Part shown: positions 1 to 8,026 of the stretch, in pieces
How the letters are laid out: each line of letters starts with the position of its first letter
How positions within the stretch are numbered: the first letter of the stretch is position 1
Assembly: GCA_024709365.1 (NCBI GenBank)
Contig: JANJWV010000117.1
Span: 1 to 51,360, forward strand
Direction: 5' to 3'
From: Desulfomicrobium sp.
Lineage (GTDB): Bacteria > Desulfobacterota > Desulfovibrionia > Desulfovibrionales > Desulfomicrobiaceae
DNA length: 51,360 nucleotides
Made by a program: the position numbers and the translations under genes
The notes under the pieces: generated by a model
Databases searched by the model: none
The model's input: only the letters and a program-made list of their open reading frames with translations
Told to the model about the DNA's origin: nothing

Positions 1-180
1 GTCCGTGGCAGCCTTGACCGCGCCGACGTCGCCGCGGACCATGACGGTGACGAGTCCGCCGCCGACCTGGGTGCGGCCGATCAGGGTCACGTTGGCGGCC
101 TTGACCATGGCGTCGGCGGCTTCGATGGCGCCGACCAGTCCTCTGGTTTCGATCATTCCGAGTGCGTTCTGTGCAGACAT
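1..180 (-). CDS. BMC-H microcompartment shell protein (partial)
   Basis: This is the first 60 residues of a single-domain bacterial microcompartment shell protein; the gene runs off the left edge. The visible part begins [19 protein letters not shown] and continues with the alternating hydrophobic pattern of the Pfam BMC fold ([17 protein letters not shown]), as in PduA/PduJ-type hexamers that tile the shell facets. The start at 180 is supported by an AAGGAG Shine-Dalgarno sequence. It lies 46 bases downstream of the aldehyde dehydrogenase stop on the same strand, so it is most likely cotranscribed as part of the cut operon. It is closely similar to the N-terminal domain of the shell protein at 1683-2216. 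Function is known for the family; the exact shell position is inferred. Confidence 0.9.
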
Positions 181-226
181 GGTGTTCTCCTTAAAATGGG
201 GTGTGCGTTAAGAGTGTTGCGAAAAA

Positions 227-1678
227 TCAGGCGATCTTCTTGAGCTGTTCGAGGATCAGGGCCGTGATGGCGCCAACGTCGATGGACGCCGCGGCGGCAT
301 GGCCGGGGGCCTGCTCCGCAGGCGCGGCGCAGCATGATCCGCCGAGGTCGTAGGCCACGCGGCGGATGTTCATGAGGTTGAGCGGCGTCACGTTGTCCGA
401 GGTGGAGCTTCCGCCTACCGTGCCGCAGCCCAGGGTGAAGGACGGGAACAGGCTGGTGGTCAGGCCCACGGCGCCGTGGGTGGACGGGGTGTTGACCAGC
501 AGTCGCGACACGGGCTTCTTCAGGCCGAACTCGCGGATGACGTCCTCGTTGCGGGAGTGGATGGACAGGGAATGCCCGATGCCGCCGTTCTTGAGCAGGG
601 CGTGGCAGAGCTCGCAGGCCTCCTGCCAGTCGTTGACGGTGTAGAAGCCCAAGAGCGCCGTCAGCTTTTCCTTGGAGAAGGGATACTTCGGGCCCACGCC
701 GGGTTCGTCGGAGACCAGAAGGCGCGTGCCGGCCGGAATCTCGATGCCGGCCAGGCGGGCGATGTACTGGGCGTCGCGGCCGACGATGTCGGGGTTCATG
801 GAGCCGTTGCCGCGCTCCATGACCCGCTTGACCTTCTCCAGCTTCTCCCCTTCCAGGAAATACGCGCCCTGCGCGACAAAGGTGGCGCGGACCTTGTCGG
901 CGATGACGGCCTCTGTCACGATGGCCTGTTCCGAGGCGCAGACCGTGCCGTTGTCGAAGGTCTTGCTGGCGAAGATCTTGGTCACGGCGTCGACGATGTC
1001 GGCGCTGCGCTCGATGTAGGCCGGCACGTTGCCCGCGCCCACGCCCAGGGCCGGGGTGCCGGAGCTGTACGCGGCCTTGACCATGCCGGGGCCGCCCGTG
1101 GCCAGGATCAGGTCGGCCACGCGCATCAGCTCCTGGCTGCCCTCGATGGTCGGCACGCTCATGACGCTGACCAGGTCCTCGCACACGCCGCACTGCGCCA
1201 GCGCCCCGCGGATGATCTCCACGGTCTTGCCGATGCACTTTCGGGCGCTGGGGTGCGGGGTAAAGACGATGGCGTTGCCGGCCTTGAGCGCGATCATGGA
1301 CTTGTAGATGGTCGTGGACGTGGGGTTGGTCGACGGGACGATGCCCGCGATGACGCCCATGGGGATGGCGATCTCGACCAGCTTGCGCGCCTTGTCGTCG
1401 CAGAGCACGCCGATGGTCTTCATATCCCTGATGGCGGCCAGCAGCTTCTCGCTGGCCAGGATGTTCTTGGTCTTCTTGTCCTGGACCTTGCCGAAGCCCG
1501 TCTCCTCCACGGCCAGGGTCGCCAGTGCTTCCGCCTGGGCGGCCGCGGCCTTGGCCACGGCCTCGACCACGGCGTCCACCTGGGCCTGTCCCAGCGCGGC
1601 GAACCCCGCCTGGGCCTGGCGCGCGGCCCGCACCAGGGACCGGGCTTCCTGAACGGACAGTAAATCCTTGTCTACCAT
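227..1678 (-). CDS. CoA-acylating acetaldehyde dehydrogenase of the cut microcompartment (CutF-like)
   Basis: This 483-residue aldehyde dehydrogenase should oxidise acetaldehyde released by CutC to acetyl-CoA, reducing NAD+, inside the microcompartment. The catalytic cysteine is Cys247 in [11 protein letters not shown], the signature of the EutE/PduP/AdhE acylating class. Cofactor-site features include [19 protein letters not shown] and [20 protein letters not shown]. After a Ala/Pro-rich linker near residues 448-465, the C-terminus ends in an amphipathic helix ([17 protein letters not shown]) that resembles an encapsulation peptide. It starts 4 bases downstream of the shell protein stop at 1683 and is clearly in the same operon. 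It is paralogous to the protein at 5783-7258, which lacks the cysteine. The acetaldehyde substrate is inferred from context. Confidence 0.93.
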
Positions 1679-1682
1679 TGTC

Positions 1683-2216
1683 TTACTCCTCTCTGTATGC
1701 CGTCATGATTGCTTCAATCAGAGTCTTCTTGCGCGCGGTCCCGATCTCGCCGGAGGCCAGCGGCAGCCCCGGCAGACCGGCGGCGATGCGGCGCAACCTG
1801 CCGACCGTCATCGCCCCGAGCTGCGAAATGTCGTATGCGGGCATCCCCCGCGAATGCGCCCCAGCTTCGGGGGCCTTCTCTTCCTTCGGCTCACCCTGCG
1901 AGACCCGCGAGGTCTGCGGAGTCTGCGAGACCTGCGGGGCCTGAGGACCGCCGCCGATGACCGCGGCCAACTCCAGGTCCGGCCGGGCGATGACGTGCGC
2001 GGACACCAGACACCCGCCCATGCGCCGGATTTCGACCGCGCCCGCGTCCACGGCGGCCTGCACCGCGGCCACCTCGCCGCGGACGGTGACGGTCACCAGC
2101 CCGGCGCCGACCTGGTCGCGGCCCGCGATGCGCACGTCCGCGGCCTTGACCATGGCGTCGGCCCCGGCGATGGCGGCCACAAACCCGCGAGTCTCGATCA
2201 TTCCCAGTGCGTTCAT
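1683..2216 (-). CDS. BMC shell protein with C-terminal SAP/Rho-N-like tail
   Basis: The protein has 177 residues. Residues 1-90 are a BMC domain ([20 protein letters not shown], then GLVTVTVRGEVAAVQAAVDAG). A low-complexity linker rich in Gln, Ser and Pro follows (about 95-120). The last 50 residues (from MPAYDISQLGAMTVGRLRRI to the end) form a compact helical module with the pattern of SAP or Rho N-terminal domains: 'MTVGRLRRIA' then 'ARKKTLIEAIMTAY'. Shell proteins with C-terminal extensions are known (EutK, PduK), and some extensions are thought to bind nucleic acid or recruit cargo; I infer something similar here. The start at 2216 leaves 8 bases after cutD. The longer reading from 2270 would overlap cutD and was rejected. 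Confidence 0.88.
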   Translation of the reverse strand: MNALGMIETRGFVAAIAGADAMVKAADVRIAGRDQVGAGLVTVTVRGEVAAVQAAVDAGAVEIRRMGGCLVSAHVIARPDLELAAVIGGGPQAPQVSQTPQTSRVSQGEPKEEKAPEAGAHSRGMPAYDISQLGAMTVGRLRRIAAGLPGLPLASGEIGTARKKTLIEAIMTAYREE

Positions 2217-2224
2217 GCTCTGCC

Positions 2225-3157
2225 TCAGTGCCGGATCACGGCCACGTCGAAGTTGTGGGCGGCGAACCACCCGGTCAGGCGCGCCAGGTCCTCGTCCGTC
2301 AGGGACGGCTGCGCATCCAGGGTGTAGTCCCAGCCGAGCTGCCCGTACTTGCCCACGCCCATACGGTGGTACGGCAGCAGGTCGATCCCCTTGAAATTCC
2401 TGTAGTCCCGGTACGGCAGCAGGAAGCGGATCAGGGCGTGAATCTCGTCATGGCCGTCGTTGAGCCCTTTCAGCAGGGGCAGGCGGATCTTGACGTTGTG
2501 CCTGTTGTCCAGCAGCCAGCGCAGGTTCGTCAGGATGGTCTCGTTGTGCACGCCGGTCAGGGCGTAGTGGCGGGCCGAGTCCATGTGCTTGACGTCGTAG
2601 AGGAAGAGGTCCGTGAACTCGGCCACCCGGGCCAGGGCCTCGGGGCGGGCGTAGCCGGACGTCTCCACGGCCGTACCTATGCCGCGCCGGCGACAGGTCA
2701 TGAGCAGGCTGGCCGCGGCCTCGGGCTGCATGAGCACCTCCCCGCCGCTCAGGGTCACGCCGCCGCCGGACATTTCATAGAAGGCCCGGTCCTCCTCCAC
2801 GATGTCCGCCAGTTCCGAGACGGTCCGCAGTTCGCCCATGACCGACAGGGCGCGCACCTTGCAGACCTGCTCGCAACGTCGGCAGCCGATGCAGTCCACA
2901 TCCTGCACGATCTCGTGCATGCGCGTGCGCGGCGAGATGCGGTGCTTGCCCACGGGGCAGACCGGCACGCAGTCGCCGCAGCGCGTGCAGATGTTCGTGC
3001 GGCACAGGACCTGGGGCTGGCGCTTCTGCCCCTCGGGGTTGGAGCACCACGTGCAGCGCAGTGGGCAGCCCTGGAAGAAGACCATGGTCCGCACGCCGGG
3101 TCCGTCGTACATGTTGTACTTCTGGATGTTGAAGATCAGAGCCTTGCGTTCGATCAT
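2225..3157 (-). CDS. cutD: Choline trimethylamine-lyase activating enzyme (radical SAM)
   Basis: This 310-residue glycyl-radical-enzyme activase uses S-adenosylmethionine and a 4Fe-4S cluster to abstract hydrogen from the glycine of CutC. The radical-SAM cysteines are in GCPLRCTWCSNPEG (CX3CX2C) near residue 33. Two ferredoxin-type motifs follow (ICTRCGDCVPVCPVG and CIGCRRCEQVCKVRA), as expected of activases with auxiliary clusters. SGGGVTLSGGEVLMQP is the usual SAM-binding glycine motif. The ATG at 3157 is preferred to the GTG at 3163 because GGAAG lies 5 bases before the ATG. The gene follows cutC directly and its identity rests on the family signature plus this adjacency. Confidence 0.95.
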   Translation of the reverse strand: MIERKALIFNIQKYNMYDGPGVRTMVFFQGCPLRCTWCSNPEGQKRQPQVLCRTNICTRCGDCVPVCPVGKHRISPRTRMHEIVQDVDCIGCRRCEQVCKVRALSVMGELRTVSELADIVEEDRAFYEMSGGGVTLSGGEVLMQPEAAASLLMTCRRRGIGTAVETSGYARPEALARVAEFTDLFLYDVKHMDSARHYALTGVHNETILTNLRWLLDNRHNVKIRLPLLKGLNDGHDEIHALIRFLLPYRDYRNFKGIDLLPYHRMGVGKYGQLGWDYTLDAQPSLTDEDLARLTGWFAAHNFDVAVIRH

Positions 3158-3162
3158 GGTCA

Positions 3163-3192
3163 CTTCCGTCTGCTTCCGTCAGCTTCCATCTG
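3163..3192 (-). repeat. Three imperfect 10-base tandem repeats between cutC and cutD
   Basis: Three adjacent 10-base units fill most of the short gap between cutC and cutD. On the minus strand they read CAGATGGAAG, CTGACGGAAG and CAGACGGAAG. Each ends in a GGAAG that could pair weakly with the 3' end of 16S rRNA, and the last copy sits at the proper distance from the cutD start. Whether the other copies matter for translation is unknown. Confidence 0.6.
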
Positions 3193-3205
3193 CTCAGGGC
3201 CGCGC

Positions 3206-5764
3206 CTAGAGCGAGTGCAGCATGGTGCGGCTGATGATCTCGTCCTGCACGTCCTTGCACAGCTCCACGAAGAAGGCGCTGTAGCCGGCCACGCGCACCA
3301 CCAGGTCGCGGTACTTCTCGGGGTGCTTCTGGGCGTCGAGAAGGATCTCGTTGTCCAGGTAGTTGAACTGCATCTCGCCGTTGCCGAGCATGCAGGCCGT
3401 GCGGATCAGGGTGATGATGCCGTTCTCGCCTTCGGGCGTGTCCAGGAGGCCCGACATGAGCTTGAAGTTGTGCACCATGCCGATGTTCATGTAGTCGTTG
3501 CCCATTTTGGACACGGACTTGATGATGGCCGTGGGGCCCTTGAAGTCCGCGCCCTGGGTCGGGCTGATGCCGTCGGACAGGGGCGACCAGGCCCGGCGGC
3601 CGCCCGCCGACGCGCCGAGGAGCTGCCCGAAGGGCGTGTTGTTGGAGATGGACAGGGTGCCGTGGCTCAGCACCGAGTACAGCGTCCGGTACTTGCGGTG
3701 CTCGATCTCGGTGAAGTGCACCAGGTCGGCGGCGATGAGGTCCGCGTAGTCGTCGTCGTTGCCGTATTTGGGCGCGGCCAGGCAGTCGGCCAGAACCTGG
3801 TCGTAGCCTTCGAAATCGGCCTTCAGGGCCAGGTTCAGTTCGGCCAGGGTGTACTTTTTGTCCTCGTAGACCAGCTTCCTGATGGCAGCCATGGAGTCGG
3901 CGTAGGTGGCCAGGCCGCTCCAGACCACGCCGGGCCCGAAGTTGTACATGGCCCCGCCGGCGGACACGTCGCGGCCGGACTCCATGCAGCCCTCGTACAT
4001 GAGGGACATGAGGGGCTTGGGCGCCAGCTCGCGATGCACGCGCTGGGAGATGACCGTGGCCACGCCGGACAGCTTGGTGATGTGCCGGATCTGCTCCTTC
4101 ACCGCGGCCTCGAACTTCTCGTAGGTGTCGAAGGCGCTCAGGTCGCCCATGTCCGGGCAGACCTGCTTGCCGTACCACAGGGGCACGCCCCGGTTCAGGA
4201 CCAGCTCGATACAGATGGGCCACTGGGTGTAGGCCGTGGACGTCCACTGATAGAGGCGTCCGGACTTCTGGGGCTCCACGCAGCCCATGAGGCAGTAGTC
4301 GCGGGCGTCTTCCATGGACACGCCCTTGGCCAGCATCATCTTGATGTGCGTGTCGTCGAAGTGCACGGCCGGGAAGCCCATGCCGGAGCGGATGACGTCC
4401 ACGATCTTCCTCAGGTACTTCTGCGGCGACTTGTTGTGCACGCGCGTGGCCAGGGACGGCTGGTAGATGCGCACGTGGCGCACGGCGTCCATGAGCAGGT
4501 AGGTCAGGTCGTTGGTGGCGTCGCGGCCGTCGCGGGTCACGCCGCCCACGCACATGTTCACGAAGGGCTGGTAGCCGGCGAAGAACTTGGAGCCGCCTTC
4601 GCTCGTGATCCACATCATCTCCGACATCTTGACGAGCATGCACCCGGCCAGGTCGAAGGCCTCGTACTCGGTCATGCGGCCGGCATCGATGTCGGCGCGG
4701 TAGAAGGGGTACATGTACTGGTCCACGCGGCCGATGGACATGCCGGTCTGGTTCTCCTCCACCACCAGCAGGGACTCGATGGTCCACACGGCCTGGATGG
4801 CTTCCCAGAAAGTGCTCGGGGCGTGGGCCGGGACGCGGGCGTTGACCTCGGAAATCTTGAGGAGCTCTGCCTTGCGCCTGGGGTCGCTCTCCTTGGCGGC
4901 CAGCTCCGCGGCGTACTGCGACAGGCGCCGGGCGTAGATCATCACGCCTTCGGCCGTGTCGATGAGGGAGCGGTAGAAATAGATTTTGTCGATGTCCTCG
5001 GGATTCTCGTAGTGCAGCTTCTCCAGGTGCTCGCTGGCCTCGCGCTGGATGTCGAGCATGCCCTTCTTCATCAGGATGACGTCGTAGCCGGGGTTGGAGT
5101 CGCCGCCGCCGTTGATGGCGTGGTACGAGCAGTCGGACACGTAGGATTCGCCCGACAGCTCCCACAGGCCGGCCTCTCGGTACTGGTCCTCGCAGTGCTC
5201 GTCCACGGACTTGCCCTTCCAGAACGGAAAGAGTTCATCGCGCATGTAGCGCTTGTCATCTTCGGAGATGAAAAACGGGTCCTGGGCGCGGATGCCGATG
5301 GTGTCGAGCTCGGCCTCCATCCAGCGCCAGGCGATGTCGGGGGAGAAGGCGCCGGTGCGGGGAGCCCCGTTGGGCGCACCGACGATGAGCTCGTGGTCCT
5401 GGATGACCAGGGGCGCCGTCTCGCAGGCCCGCTTGAAGGCCTTGCCGCGCAGGATGGCCTTGGGCATGCCCGGATTCTCCCTGGCGACCTCGGTCATGGC
5501 CCGCGCGCGGTGCGTGGAGATGCTCGGCACGTGGGTCAGGAATTTCTTCTTCAGGGCCACATGGCGCTCTGTGGGGCCGTCGGGAATGCCGGCCTGGGGT
5601 GCGGCGCCGGCGTACACGGCCCCTGCGGGCGCGGGCGAAACCGTCTTGGCGCTGCCGATTTCCGCCGACAGGTTCTCGAAGACCCTGCGCAGCGAAGCCC
5701 GGTCCTCGGGGCTCAGGTTTCTGGTCGCCTCGGCGAGCTTCTGGGAAAAATCACGAAGATCCAC
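3206..5764 (-). CDS. cutC: Choline trimethylamine-lyase (glycyl radical enzyme)
   Basis: This 852-residue enzyme cleaves choline to trimethylamine and acetaldehyde by radical chemistry. The thiyl-radical site is Cys495, with the catalytic Glu at 497, in [14 protein letters not shown]; this motif and the following [16 protein letters not shown] are typical of CutC rather than of glycerol or propanediol dehydratases. [19 protein letters not shown] carries the aspartate that contacts the trimethylammonium group in characterised CutC. The glycyl radical is Gly827 in RVAGYSAFF near the C-terminus. The N-terminal 40 residues ([20 protein letters not shown]) form a helix separated from the core by an Ala/Pro linker and look like an encapsulation peptide. 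The start codon is GTG with a strong AGGAGG five bases upstream. Sequence resemblance to the Desulfovibrio enzyme is high throughout. Confidence 0.97.
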
Positions 5765-5782
5765 GCTTACCTCCTGGTTGTC

Positions 5783-7258
5783 TCAGGGCCTTTTGAGGAC
5801 CTGAATCGCTTCGTTCAAAATTTGCCGTAAGGCGTCGCTCACGGCCCGCGACGGGCTCGGTTCCGACGCCTGGATGTCAGTGCATGTCAGTTGCCCGTCC
5901 TCTGTCCGCACCTCGCGCACCCCGTAGCCGACCTTGCGGACGTAGACGAGGTTCATGGGCGAGACGTTGTCGGAGGTGATGCCCTGGCCGGCGGAGCCGC
6001 TGCCCAGGGTCAGGGCGGGAAAAAGGTTGGTGGTCAGGCCCATGCCGCCGAAGGTCGCCGGGGTGTTGACCAGCACGCGGCCCACGGGCTTCTTCAGGGC
6101 GAACTGGCGGACGACCTCCTCGTCGCGTGAATGAACGACCAGGGTGTGGGCGCAGCGTTCGTGCAGAAGCAGCTCGATGCACTTCTCGCAGGCGTTGCGC
6201 CAGTCGTCCTCGACATAGAGGGTCAGGACCGGGGCCAGCATCTCGCGCGAAAAGGGGTCGGACTCGGACACGAAGGACCGCTCCGCCACCAGCACGCGGG
6301 TGCCCTCGGGCACGTCGAACCCGGCCCGGCGGGCCAGGACCGTGGCCGGCAGCCCGACCAGGCAGGCGTTCGGGCGCCCGTGAGTGACGAAAAGGCCGCC
6401 CAGCCGCCCGGACTCCTCGTCGCTCATGAAATATGCGCCCTGCTCCCGCAGGGCCCGGCGGACGAGGTCCGCTACCGGCGCGTCCACGACCACGGCCTGC
6501 TCGGCCGAAGCCGCGATGCCGTTGTCGAAGACCTTGCTGACGATGACGTCGCGCACGGCGCGGTCGATGTCCGCCGTGCGTTCGATGAAGACCGGCCCGT
6601 TGCCGCTGCCGCCGTAGATGAGGGGCTTGCCCGCGGCCCTGGCCTCGGCCAGCATGCCCGGCACGCCCGTGATCATGATGAGCGACGTGGCCGCATGACG
6701 CATCAGCTCCCGCGTGCCGCTTTTGGTCACGGTGCCGAGGTAGCCCAGGCAGCCTTCGGGCAGGCCGTGGCCGTGGGCGGCGGCGATCATGACGTCCAGC
6801 GCCCTGCCGATGCTGCGGCTGGCGCGGGGGTGCGGGGAGAAGAGCGCGGCGTTGCCGGACTTGATGGCCAGAAGCGTCGTGCAGATGGTCGTGGACACCG
6901 GGCTGGTGGACGGGCACAGGGCCGCGACGACCCCGACGGGCACGCCGATGTCCATGACGCCCCGCTCCCGGTCCTCGCCGATGACGCCCACGCAGCGCAT
7001 GCCGCGCAGCCGGGCCCGGACCTGCTCGCAGACGAAGCGGTTCTTGATCAGCTTGTCCTGCCAGCGCCCGAAATCCGTCTCCTCCCGGCTCATGACCGCC
7101 AGGTCGCGCAGGTGCGGGGCCACGGCGTCGGCCACGCCCTCGACAATGGCGTCGAGACTGTCCTGGTCGAACCCGGCCAGGCGCTTCTGGGCCTCCACGG
7201 CGTTCTCGGCCAGAATCCTGGCCTGCTGGATGGAGAGCAGATCGTTGTCGATGATCAT
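5783..7258 (-). CDS. Aldehyde dehydrogenase homologue lacking the catalytic cysteine (CutB-like)
   Basis: This 491-residue protein has the full acylating aldehyde dehydrogenase fold: it aligns along its length with the enzyme at 227-1678, including VPVGVVAALCPSTSPVSTT, GVPGMLAEARAAGKPLIYGG and KKPVGRVLVNTPATFGG. Where that paralogue has [11 protein letters not shown], this one reads FDNGIAASAEQ, so the nucleophilic cysteine position (residue 250) is alanine. It should therefore not oxidise aldehydes by the normal covalent mechanism. A C-terminal amphipathic helix (SDALRQILNEAIQVLKRP) resembles an encapsulation peptide. It sits between the tandem-BMC gene (13-base gap) and cutC (18-base gap). 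A structural, regulatory or cofactor-binding role is possible; none is shown by the sequence. Confidence 0.9.
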   Translation of the reverse strand: MIIDNDLLSIQQARILAENAVEAQKRLAGFDQDSLDAIVEGVADAVAPHLRDLAVMSREETDFGRWQDKLIKNRFVCEQVRARLRGMRCVGVIGEDRERGVMDIGVPVGVVAALCPSTSPVSTTICTTLLAIKSGNAALFSPHPRASRSIGRALDVMIAAAHGHGLPEGCLGYLGTVTKSGTRELMRHAATSLIMITGVPGMLAEARAAGKPLIYGGSGNGPVFIERTADIDRAVRDVIVSKVFDNGIAASAEQAVVVDAPVADLVRRALREQGAYFMSDEESGRLGGLFVTHGRPNACLVGLPATVLARRAGFDVPEGTRVLVAERSFVSESDPFSREMLAPVLTLYVEDDWRNACEKCIELLLHERCAHTLVVHSRDEEVVRQFALKKPVGRVLVNTPATFGGMGLTTNLFPALTLGSGSAGQGITSDNVSPMNLVYVRKVGYGVREVRTEDGQLTCTDIQASEPSPSRAVSDALRQILNEAIQVLKRP

Positions 7259-7271
7259 GGCCGGTCCGTCG

Positions 7272-7877
7272 TTACGGGAGCAGGTTTTCGAAGGCGTAGC
7301 GCCCTGTGATCTTGACCAGGTCCGGGTGGGGCGTGGGGATGACCACGGAGCTGTAGACGGACGCGCCCATCTTCTCCACGGCCTTCACGCCCGCCGCCAC
7401 GGCGGAGGCGCAGGCGGCCACATCGCCCTGAACCAGCACGGAGACATACCCCGAGGCCACGTTCTCGAAGCCGACGACCTCCACATCCGCGGTCTTCTGC
7501 ATGGCGTCGGCCGCTTCGAGCAGGTAGACGATGCCGAAGGTCTCGATGAGTCCCATGGCCCGCGGGCGCCCGGCCTCGCCTTCCGCGTCCACCGCGTAGA
7601 CGGACACGATGTCGGCCACGCCCCTGATGGGCCGTGGCATGACGTTCTTGGCCGTCAGCTTGCCTATCTCGGCCGCGCCGGCCGCGCCGGCCTCGACGGC
7701 GGCGGTCACGGCCGCCACGTCGCCCTTGACCATGATGGTGACCAGGGTCGAGCCCACGTTCTCATAGGAGATGAGCTGCACGTTGGCCGCCTTGAGCATC
7801 CTGTCCGCGCCGTTGATGGCCGGGACCATCCCCAGCGTCTCGATGAGGCCCAGGGCCTCTTCGCCGTAATATCGCAT
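7272..7877 (-). CDS. Tandem-domain BMC shell protein (BMC-T)
   Basis: The 201-residue protein has two BMC domains in series. The first covers about residues 5-95 (ALGLIETLGMVPAINGADRM, then TLVTIMVKGDVAAVTAAVEAG) and the second about 107-198 (AMGLIETFGIVYLLEAADAM, then GYVSVLVQGDVAACASAVAAG). Such proteins form trimers that act as pseudohexamers in the shell and often carry a gated pore. No cysteine resembling the PduT iron-sulfur site was recognised. The start at 7877 is chosen because GGGAG lies 4 bases upstream; the upstream 29 codons look non-coding. It is the first gene of the visible cut operon, and its probable control region is at 7878-8100. Confidence 0.93.
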   Translation of the reverse strand: MRYYGEEALGLIETLGMVPAINGADRMLKAANVQLISYENVGSTLVTIMVKGDVAAVTAAVEAGAAGAAEIGKLTAKNVMPRPIRGVADIVSVYAVDAEGEAGRPRAMGLIETFGIVYLLEAADAMQKTADVEVVGFENVASGYVSVLVQGDVAACASAVAAGVKAVEKMGASVYSSVVIPTPHPDLVKITGRYAFENLLP

Positions 7878-8026
7878 ATCGCTCCCGATACGATGACGTT
7901 TTCGGTGCCGCTCGCCTGCAATCCTGGCGAAGGTTGCGGCACACCTGCATTGAAACTGAGACAAACCACTGCCCCGCAGGGAAGGTCACCCGGTTATTCA
8001 AAAAATATGCTCATGGTGATGAAATG

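Follow-up and report, generated by a model that had tools for sequence, protein, structure and literature searches.

Second Aldehyde Dehydrogenases of Choline Microcompartments

Cleavage of choline in bacterial compartments produces trimethylamine, the precursor of TMAO. In 2014, Axen et al. showed that every GRM1 locus with two aldehyde dehydrogenases (AldDHs) carries one in which the catalytic cysteine is replaced by serine or proline, and a scaffold or regulatory role was suggested for this protein (PMC4207490). The second AldDH copy of GRM1A and GRM1B was later described by Sutter et al. (2021) as "putatively inactive" (PMC8217296). A dead second AldDH in GRM1 is already known in outline, and the alanine found at the cysteine position in the protein studied here, CutB, is a minor variant of it. 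Other sources assign an activity to the protein. Price et al. (2014) placed Dde_3283, which adjoins the choline lyase gene Dde_3282 and is probably cutB, among acetaldehyde-processing genes without separate proof, and a 2026 review lists CutB as one of the two CoA-acylating aldehyde oxidoreductases of the pathway (PMC13258700).

In the GRM2 system of Klebsiella, unlike GRM1, there is no separate dead AldDH. The GRM2 CutC, however, carries a duplicated N-terminal domain devoid of the glycyl radical, for which a role in core assembly has been proposed (PMC6325248, PMC6971018). In addition, the Klebsiella AldDH CutF shifts the full-length CutC, and not an N-terminally truncated version, to larger complexes (PMC6971018). 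As for the enzymes themselves, the roles of the active-site Cys, Asn, His and Glu are known from solved acylating AldDHs (PMC4762007, PMC5311937), the oxyanion Asn being N138 in Cphy1178 (PMC4762007).

The Choline Locus of Desulfomicrobium sp.

The locus described here is found in Desulfomicrobium sp. (class Desulfovibrionia; assembly GCA_024709365.1, contig JANJWV010000117.1), and the window corresponds to the whole stretch that was analysed, positions 1 to 51,360 of the forward strand (51,360 nucleotides). All genes of the locus lie on the minus strand. CutB, a 491-residue homologue of CoA-acylating AldDHs (5783-7258; open reading frame, translation, PF00171 and AF2 fold), is preceded directly by the BMC-T shell protein CutA (7272-7877, by homology, with a likely start at MRYYGEEALG within the open reading frame 7272-7964) and followed directly by the choline trimethylamine-lyase CutC (3206-5764; TIGR04394, 1644.6 bits against a cut-off of 1050). 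Next come the glycyl-radical activating enzyme CutD (2225-3163, assigned by position and homology), the shell protein CutE (1683-2270, homologous to BMC shell proteins) and the active acetaldehyde dehydrogenase paralogue CutF (227-1678, 483 residues), in which Cys247 and Asn118 are intact.

The presence of CutC/CutD together with shell genes places the locus in GRM1, and more precisely among the GRM1 loci with two AldDHs of which one lacks the catalytic cysteine (Ala250 in CutB versus Cys247 in CutF). The locus occupies window positions 1-8000 and is truncated by the contig start just past CutF, which leaves its distal genes out of sight. Among the genomes searched, the source genome and one other (G016) are the only members of the genus with a cut locus, which suggests sporadic gain.

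Loss of Two Catalytic Residues

The minus strand of positions 6500-6529 reads TTC GAC AAC GGC ATC GCG GCT TCG GCC GAG, encoding F244-D-N-G-I-A-A250-S-A-E253. The Ala250 codon, GCT (6509-6511), stands in the same alignment column as Cys247 of CutF (938-940). An earlier, sequence-only reading of this DNA had reported this substitution, and the codons and the alignment agree with it exactly. That reading also regarded CutB and CutF as full-length proteins, which is confirmed by their near-gapless alignment (44% identity, 3 gap positions in 445 columns). Such uniform alignment of full-length proteins excludes a frameshift or misalignment as the cause of Ala250, while sequencing error or chance is excluded by the survey described below, where none of 148 CutBs has cysteine in this column.

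A second loss had been missed. The oxyanion Asn (Asn118 of CutF, in the motif STNPT) is replaced in CutB by Ser119 (STSPV; codon at 6902-6904). His371, Thr372 and Glu339 of the active site are retained, and Lys133 is also mostly kept across the CutB alignment, along with Glu339 and His371. Compared with acylating AldDHs of the CutF/EutE type (TIGR02518; PDB 3k9d, 5j78), CutB shares the fold, as judged from its PF00171 match and its Foldseek match to 3k9d, as well as the length, the C-terminal extension and most of the sequence motif. It differs in having Ala250 and Ser119 instead of the catalytic Cys and oxyanion Asn of this type, and its TIGR02518 score (508.8 bits) is under the curated equivalog cut-off of 620.1, whereas CutF scores 642.6.

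The sequence-only reading had noted that a nearby cysteine placed at the active site would speak against a non-catalytic protein. When conservation was examined across CutBs, no cysteine was found that was both conserved and suited to the site. Cys77, Cys89 and Cys115 occur in 91, 95 and 88% of CutBs, respectively, being missing from some members and located elsewhere in the fold, and Cys357 and Cys360 are common to most active paralogues. The first three (codons at 7027-7029, 6992-6994 and 6914-6916) are specific to CutB and absent from active paralogues.

It could be argued that CutB is still an enzyme, acting through serine or another residue or catalysing a different reaction, since most members retain the active-site His, Thr and Glu, and serine is the residue most often found at the cysteine column. 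However, in half of the members Pro or Ala stands in place of the nucleophile, the oxyanion Asn is also gone with no conserved cysteine to compensate, and the TIGR02518 score is below the cut-off, making this proposal very improbable. That CutB is non-catalytic is strongly supported by these comparisons, because the nucleophile has been lost throughout the clade, and the oxyanion Asn in most of it, and because the pocket has been remodelled. As far as sequence can tell, this contradicts the label of CoA-acylating enzyme given to CutB in the 2026 review.

Distribution and Evolution of CutB

The survey of CutB loci covered 348 genomes belonging to the window's class, 56 of them with CutB, as well as the species genomes of GTDB, which gave 80 loci, and genomes of Clostridia and Bacilli. 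Among 124 unique CutBs, the cysteine column contained Pro (66), Ser (49), Ala (6) or Thr (3) and never Cys, and the asparagine column Ser (112), Gly (6), Asn (5) or Asp (1). After later additions, the counts at the cysteine column were Ser 71, Pro 67, Ala 7, Thr 3 and Cys 0 (148 CutBs). Cysteine is present, in turn, in 57/57 CutFs and in all 15 other active paralogues having a residue at this column. The possibility that CutB orthologues would mostly keep the cysteine, raised in the sequence-only reading, is thereby dispelled. As to whether alanine itself is conserved at this position, the loss of cysteine proved universal and the alanine rare (7/148), and Ala was dismissed as a conserved feature of CutB.

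The Desulfomicrobium protein thus resembles the inactive second AldDH of GRM1A/GRM1B in locus type, in being encoded by a second AldDH gene and in lacking the catalytic Cys. It differs from the published cases, all Ser or Pro, in having Ala, and Thr is found in other members. The description "Cys to Ser or Pro" therefore does not fit the window's CutB, yet on the sequences compared the protein is no outsider and it is the wording of Axen et al. that is too narrow, as Ser, Pro, Ala and Thr all occur within one clade. In a quick tree rooted with an AdhE outgroup, in which long branches were flagged, CutB forms a single clade (SH-aLRT 100) with a long stem, and the window's CutB sits in it with the other CutBs (support 100). 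According to this tree, the CutB clade is old and lost the cysteine only once. The residue then moved repeatedly among Ser, Pro, Ala and Thr, with at least 15 changes counted over all states and no reversion to Cys in any CutB.

The median dN/dS is 0.28 for CutB, 0.215 for CutF, 0.176 for CutD and 0.144 for CutC, values (Nei-Gojobori) to be taken as relative only because many pairs approach saturation at synonymous sites. By these estimates CutB is under purifying selection. It evolves faster than its neighbours, with a median identity of 61% as opposed to 75% for CutF and 81% for CutC, and three Firmicutes CutBs are very divergent, features that could be seen in a decaying duplicate held only by its operon position. 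Against such decay, all loci read, those of Desulfobacterota and Firmicutes alike, have an intact open reading frame, dN/dS is well below 1 and some positions are invariant. Moreover, choline induction has been reported: the Clostridium ljungdahlii AldDH gene CLJU_RS19625, which holds the cutB position adjoining the choline lyase gene, responds to choline with an increase of about 7 log2 units (PMC12016505). We consider decay very improbable.

Fold, Pocket and Terminal Helices

The AF2 monomer model of CutB (pLDDT 78, pTM 0.73) has an ordinary AldDH fold, 3k9d being the closest structure (Foldseek, TM 0.86/0.92). DSSP of the model delimits an N-terminal helix at residues 2-27 (7178-7255). At the other end, residues 471-489 (5792-5848) are predicted to form an amphipathic helix resembling an encapsulation peptide, with a hydrophobic moment of 0.61 for residues 472-489 that was equalled or exceeded by only 0.24% of shuffles. 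An amphipathic terminal helix is what would be looked for in an encapsulated BMC core protein, and the modelled helix is as expected for an encapsulation peptide, in line with the encapsulation-like C-terminus that had been attributed to CutB from sequence alone.

Several residues are conserved specifically in CutB, either in the pocket (Ser119, Val121, Val199, Tyr215-Gly216, Ala252, Ser420 and Gly426) or outside it (Glu18, Glu350, Tyr439 and Gly444). Tyr215 (6614-6616) belongs to the conserved GVGxGN loop and corresponds to Gly212 of CutF; its column contains Tyr in 89% of CutBs and Gly in 100% of active paralogues. The remodelled yet conserved pocket could point to ligand binding instead of a purely scaffolding role. 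CutB might bind NAD, CoA, acetaldehyde, trimethylamine or choline and serve CutC as a sensor, buffer or channel, a proposal that finds some backing in the non-random changes N119S, T121V, G199V, Tyr215-Gly216 and Ser420 and in the frequent retention of Glu339, Lys133 and His371. Nevertheless, in the three divergent Firmicutes CutBs residues 41-100, in the nucleotide-binding half, have eroded to 10-35% identity to the CutB consensus, so that nucleotide binding would not be the common requirement. We consider a ligand-binding role of this kind unlikely. The more specific notion of an NAD or CoA buffer, put forward in the sequence-only reading, is disfavoured by the clade-wide changes at the dinucleotide site and by the collapse of the nucleotide-binding half in the most divergent members.

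The same three proteins have proline at the cysteine column. Their best-kept part is residues 1-20 (75-80% identity to the consensus), and residues 341-360 and 381-400 are at 50-70% and 70-75%, respectively. These three segments are, by comparison of sequences, candidate binding surfaces of CutB. The proteins in question (L213:6427-7869, L239 and L240) retain the N-terminal helix and residues 340-400, whereas their nucleotide-binding half is largely gone.

CutB and the Active AldDH

CutB is accompanied by two kinds of active AldDH, one from the CutF clade in most Desulfobacterota and one from another clade in Firmicutes and Halodesulfovibrio. The two groups are non-sister on the tree, so that a single lineage of CutB is combined with two lineages of AldDH. 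Conversely, CutB is absent from two loci that encode a CutF-type AldDH, PduL and shell proteins but no CutC. In these compartment loci (L174:12580-15078 and L181:4140-6650), which have the same CutF-type AldDH as choline loci, the glycyl-radical enzyme was initially regarded as an isethionate lyase, an assignment dropped in favour of the (2S)-3-sulfopropanediol dehydratase HpsG indicated by NCBIfam.

The opposite arrangement is found in two Halodesulfovibrio genomes (G203 and G209), where CutA, CutB, CutC and CutD are retained and no other type-I AldDH was detected in the genome at 1e-60. Their CutB has a dN/dS of 0.06-0.10 and is as constrained as in relatives with an AldDH. The two AldDH losses look independent because different neighbouring genes are missing in each genome. 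In the corresponding stretches (L042, 20 kb, and L112, 21 kb) the active AldDH and PduL have been lost, the other genes differ in what is missing, and CutA-B-C-D is kept. Two satellite choline loci (L048 and L057) have no AldDH of their own in the locus, and none was seen within the stretches read of L144 and L061.

These observations bear on the idea, advanced in the sequence-only reading, that CutB is a partner in mixed oligomers, and more precisely on the possibility that it joins the active AldDH in tetramers, where it would regulate that enzyme or support its structure. CutB and CutF do share the fold and 44% of their residues, other acylating AldDHs are tetrameric (PMC4762007), and the C-terminal oligomerisation strand is recognisably retained in CutB. 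But the strand contains the CutB-specific Tyr439 and Gly444, a single CutB clade stands beside two non-sister AldDH lineages, selection maintains CutB in the choline loci of genomes where no other type-I AldDH was detected, and loci with a CutF-type AldDH and no CutC are without CutB. Mixed oligomers are thus disfavoured and seem to us rather improbable.

CutB Accompanies the Extended CutC

In every locus read, CutB is directly upstream of CutC-CutD. An independent survey by CutC showed that the 56 genomes of the window's class with an extended CutC are the same 56 that have CutB, with one more genome, G016, set aside because its CutC is cut by the contig end. CutB is likewise found in 42/42 Clostridiaceae with an extended CutC, in five further genomes of Clostridia and Bacilli (G637, G512, G383, G1257 and G1293), three of which have a very divergent CutB, and in the gammaproteobacterium AwWohl, where extended CutC and CutB are both present. 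In total, 104/104 surveyed extended CutCs are accompanied by CutB. G512, with no CutB match at 1e-100, was rejected as an exception when a divergent CutB (212 bits) was recognised at the same place.

The extension corresponds to about residues 1-58 of the window's CutC (5591-5764), as delimited by comparison with extension-less CutCs. Seven CutCs at 78-81% identity start only at query residue 53-58. In their loci CutD is present, and neither shell genes nor CutB were found. These seven proteins are nested among extended CutCs (support 96 and 100), which is most simply read as one joint loss of the extension, the shell and CutB in this clade. The extension-less CutCs without shell genes (L184-L190) represent a lyase that left the microcompartment. 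CutB is also missing beside the GRM2-like CutC of the Clostridiaceae genome G1176, where the active AldDH is the only AldDH.

CutB as a Possible Partner of CutC

The loss of the asparagine, the pocket changes, the link with extended CutC and the survival of CutB without an active AldDH were not described by Axen et al. (2014) or Sutter et al. (2021). Among the functions contemplated in the sequence-only reading, a structural core is the best supported, with the amendment that it appears to be tied to CutC rather than to the AldDH. In this scenario, CutB would be a pseudoenzyme kept as a structural partner or scaffold of encapsulated CutC. CutB oligomers would attach to CutC, with the N-terminal extension of CutC as the probable contact, and to the shell or core by way of their own C-terminal helix, so that CutC becomes clustered and enclosed. 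The acetaldehyde chemistry would be left to a separate active AldDH, either CutF or its non-sister substitute. We regard the chances of this model as about even, because both the putative CutB-CutC binding and the absence of activity are deduced from comparisons, and because cutB and cutC are neighbouring genes, whose linkage in an operon may account for part of their co-occurrence. That CutB and extended CutC go together also restates, in part, their shared membership in microcompartment loci.

The Klebsiella precedent differs in its AldDH, since the CutF there is active, and in the CutC extension, which is longer and of another kind. The cross-linking task held by active CutF in GRM2 may have passed to CutB in GRM1. 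Another parallel is the N-terminal domain of GRM2 CutC, which, like CutB, is homologous to a core enzyme, lacks catalytic function and is linked to the choline lyase in a choline compartment. The differences are that the domain in GRM2 is a fused glycyl-radical-enzyme domain and CutB a separate AldDH, and that the sole GRM2-like locus surveyed has no CutB. More tentatively, and with less confidence than in the partnership itself, CutB could be a dedicated pseudo-AldDH adaptor that recognises the CutC extension and nucleates the core, the dead AldDH of GRM1 being comparable to the fused dead lyase copy of GRM2 and the loss of extension and of CutB a single event.

What is new here is comparative evidence tying the dead enzyme to CutC rather than to the AldDH, which makes its role directly testable. 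If CutB is indeed an assembly factor of CutC, this would account for the retention of a dead enzyme across Desulfobacterota and Firmicutes, and it would provide a handle on the enclosure of the lyase and a part for the engineering of compartments.
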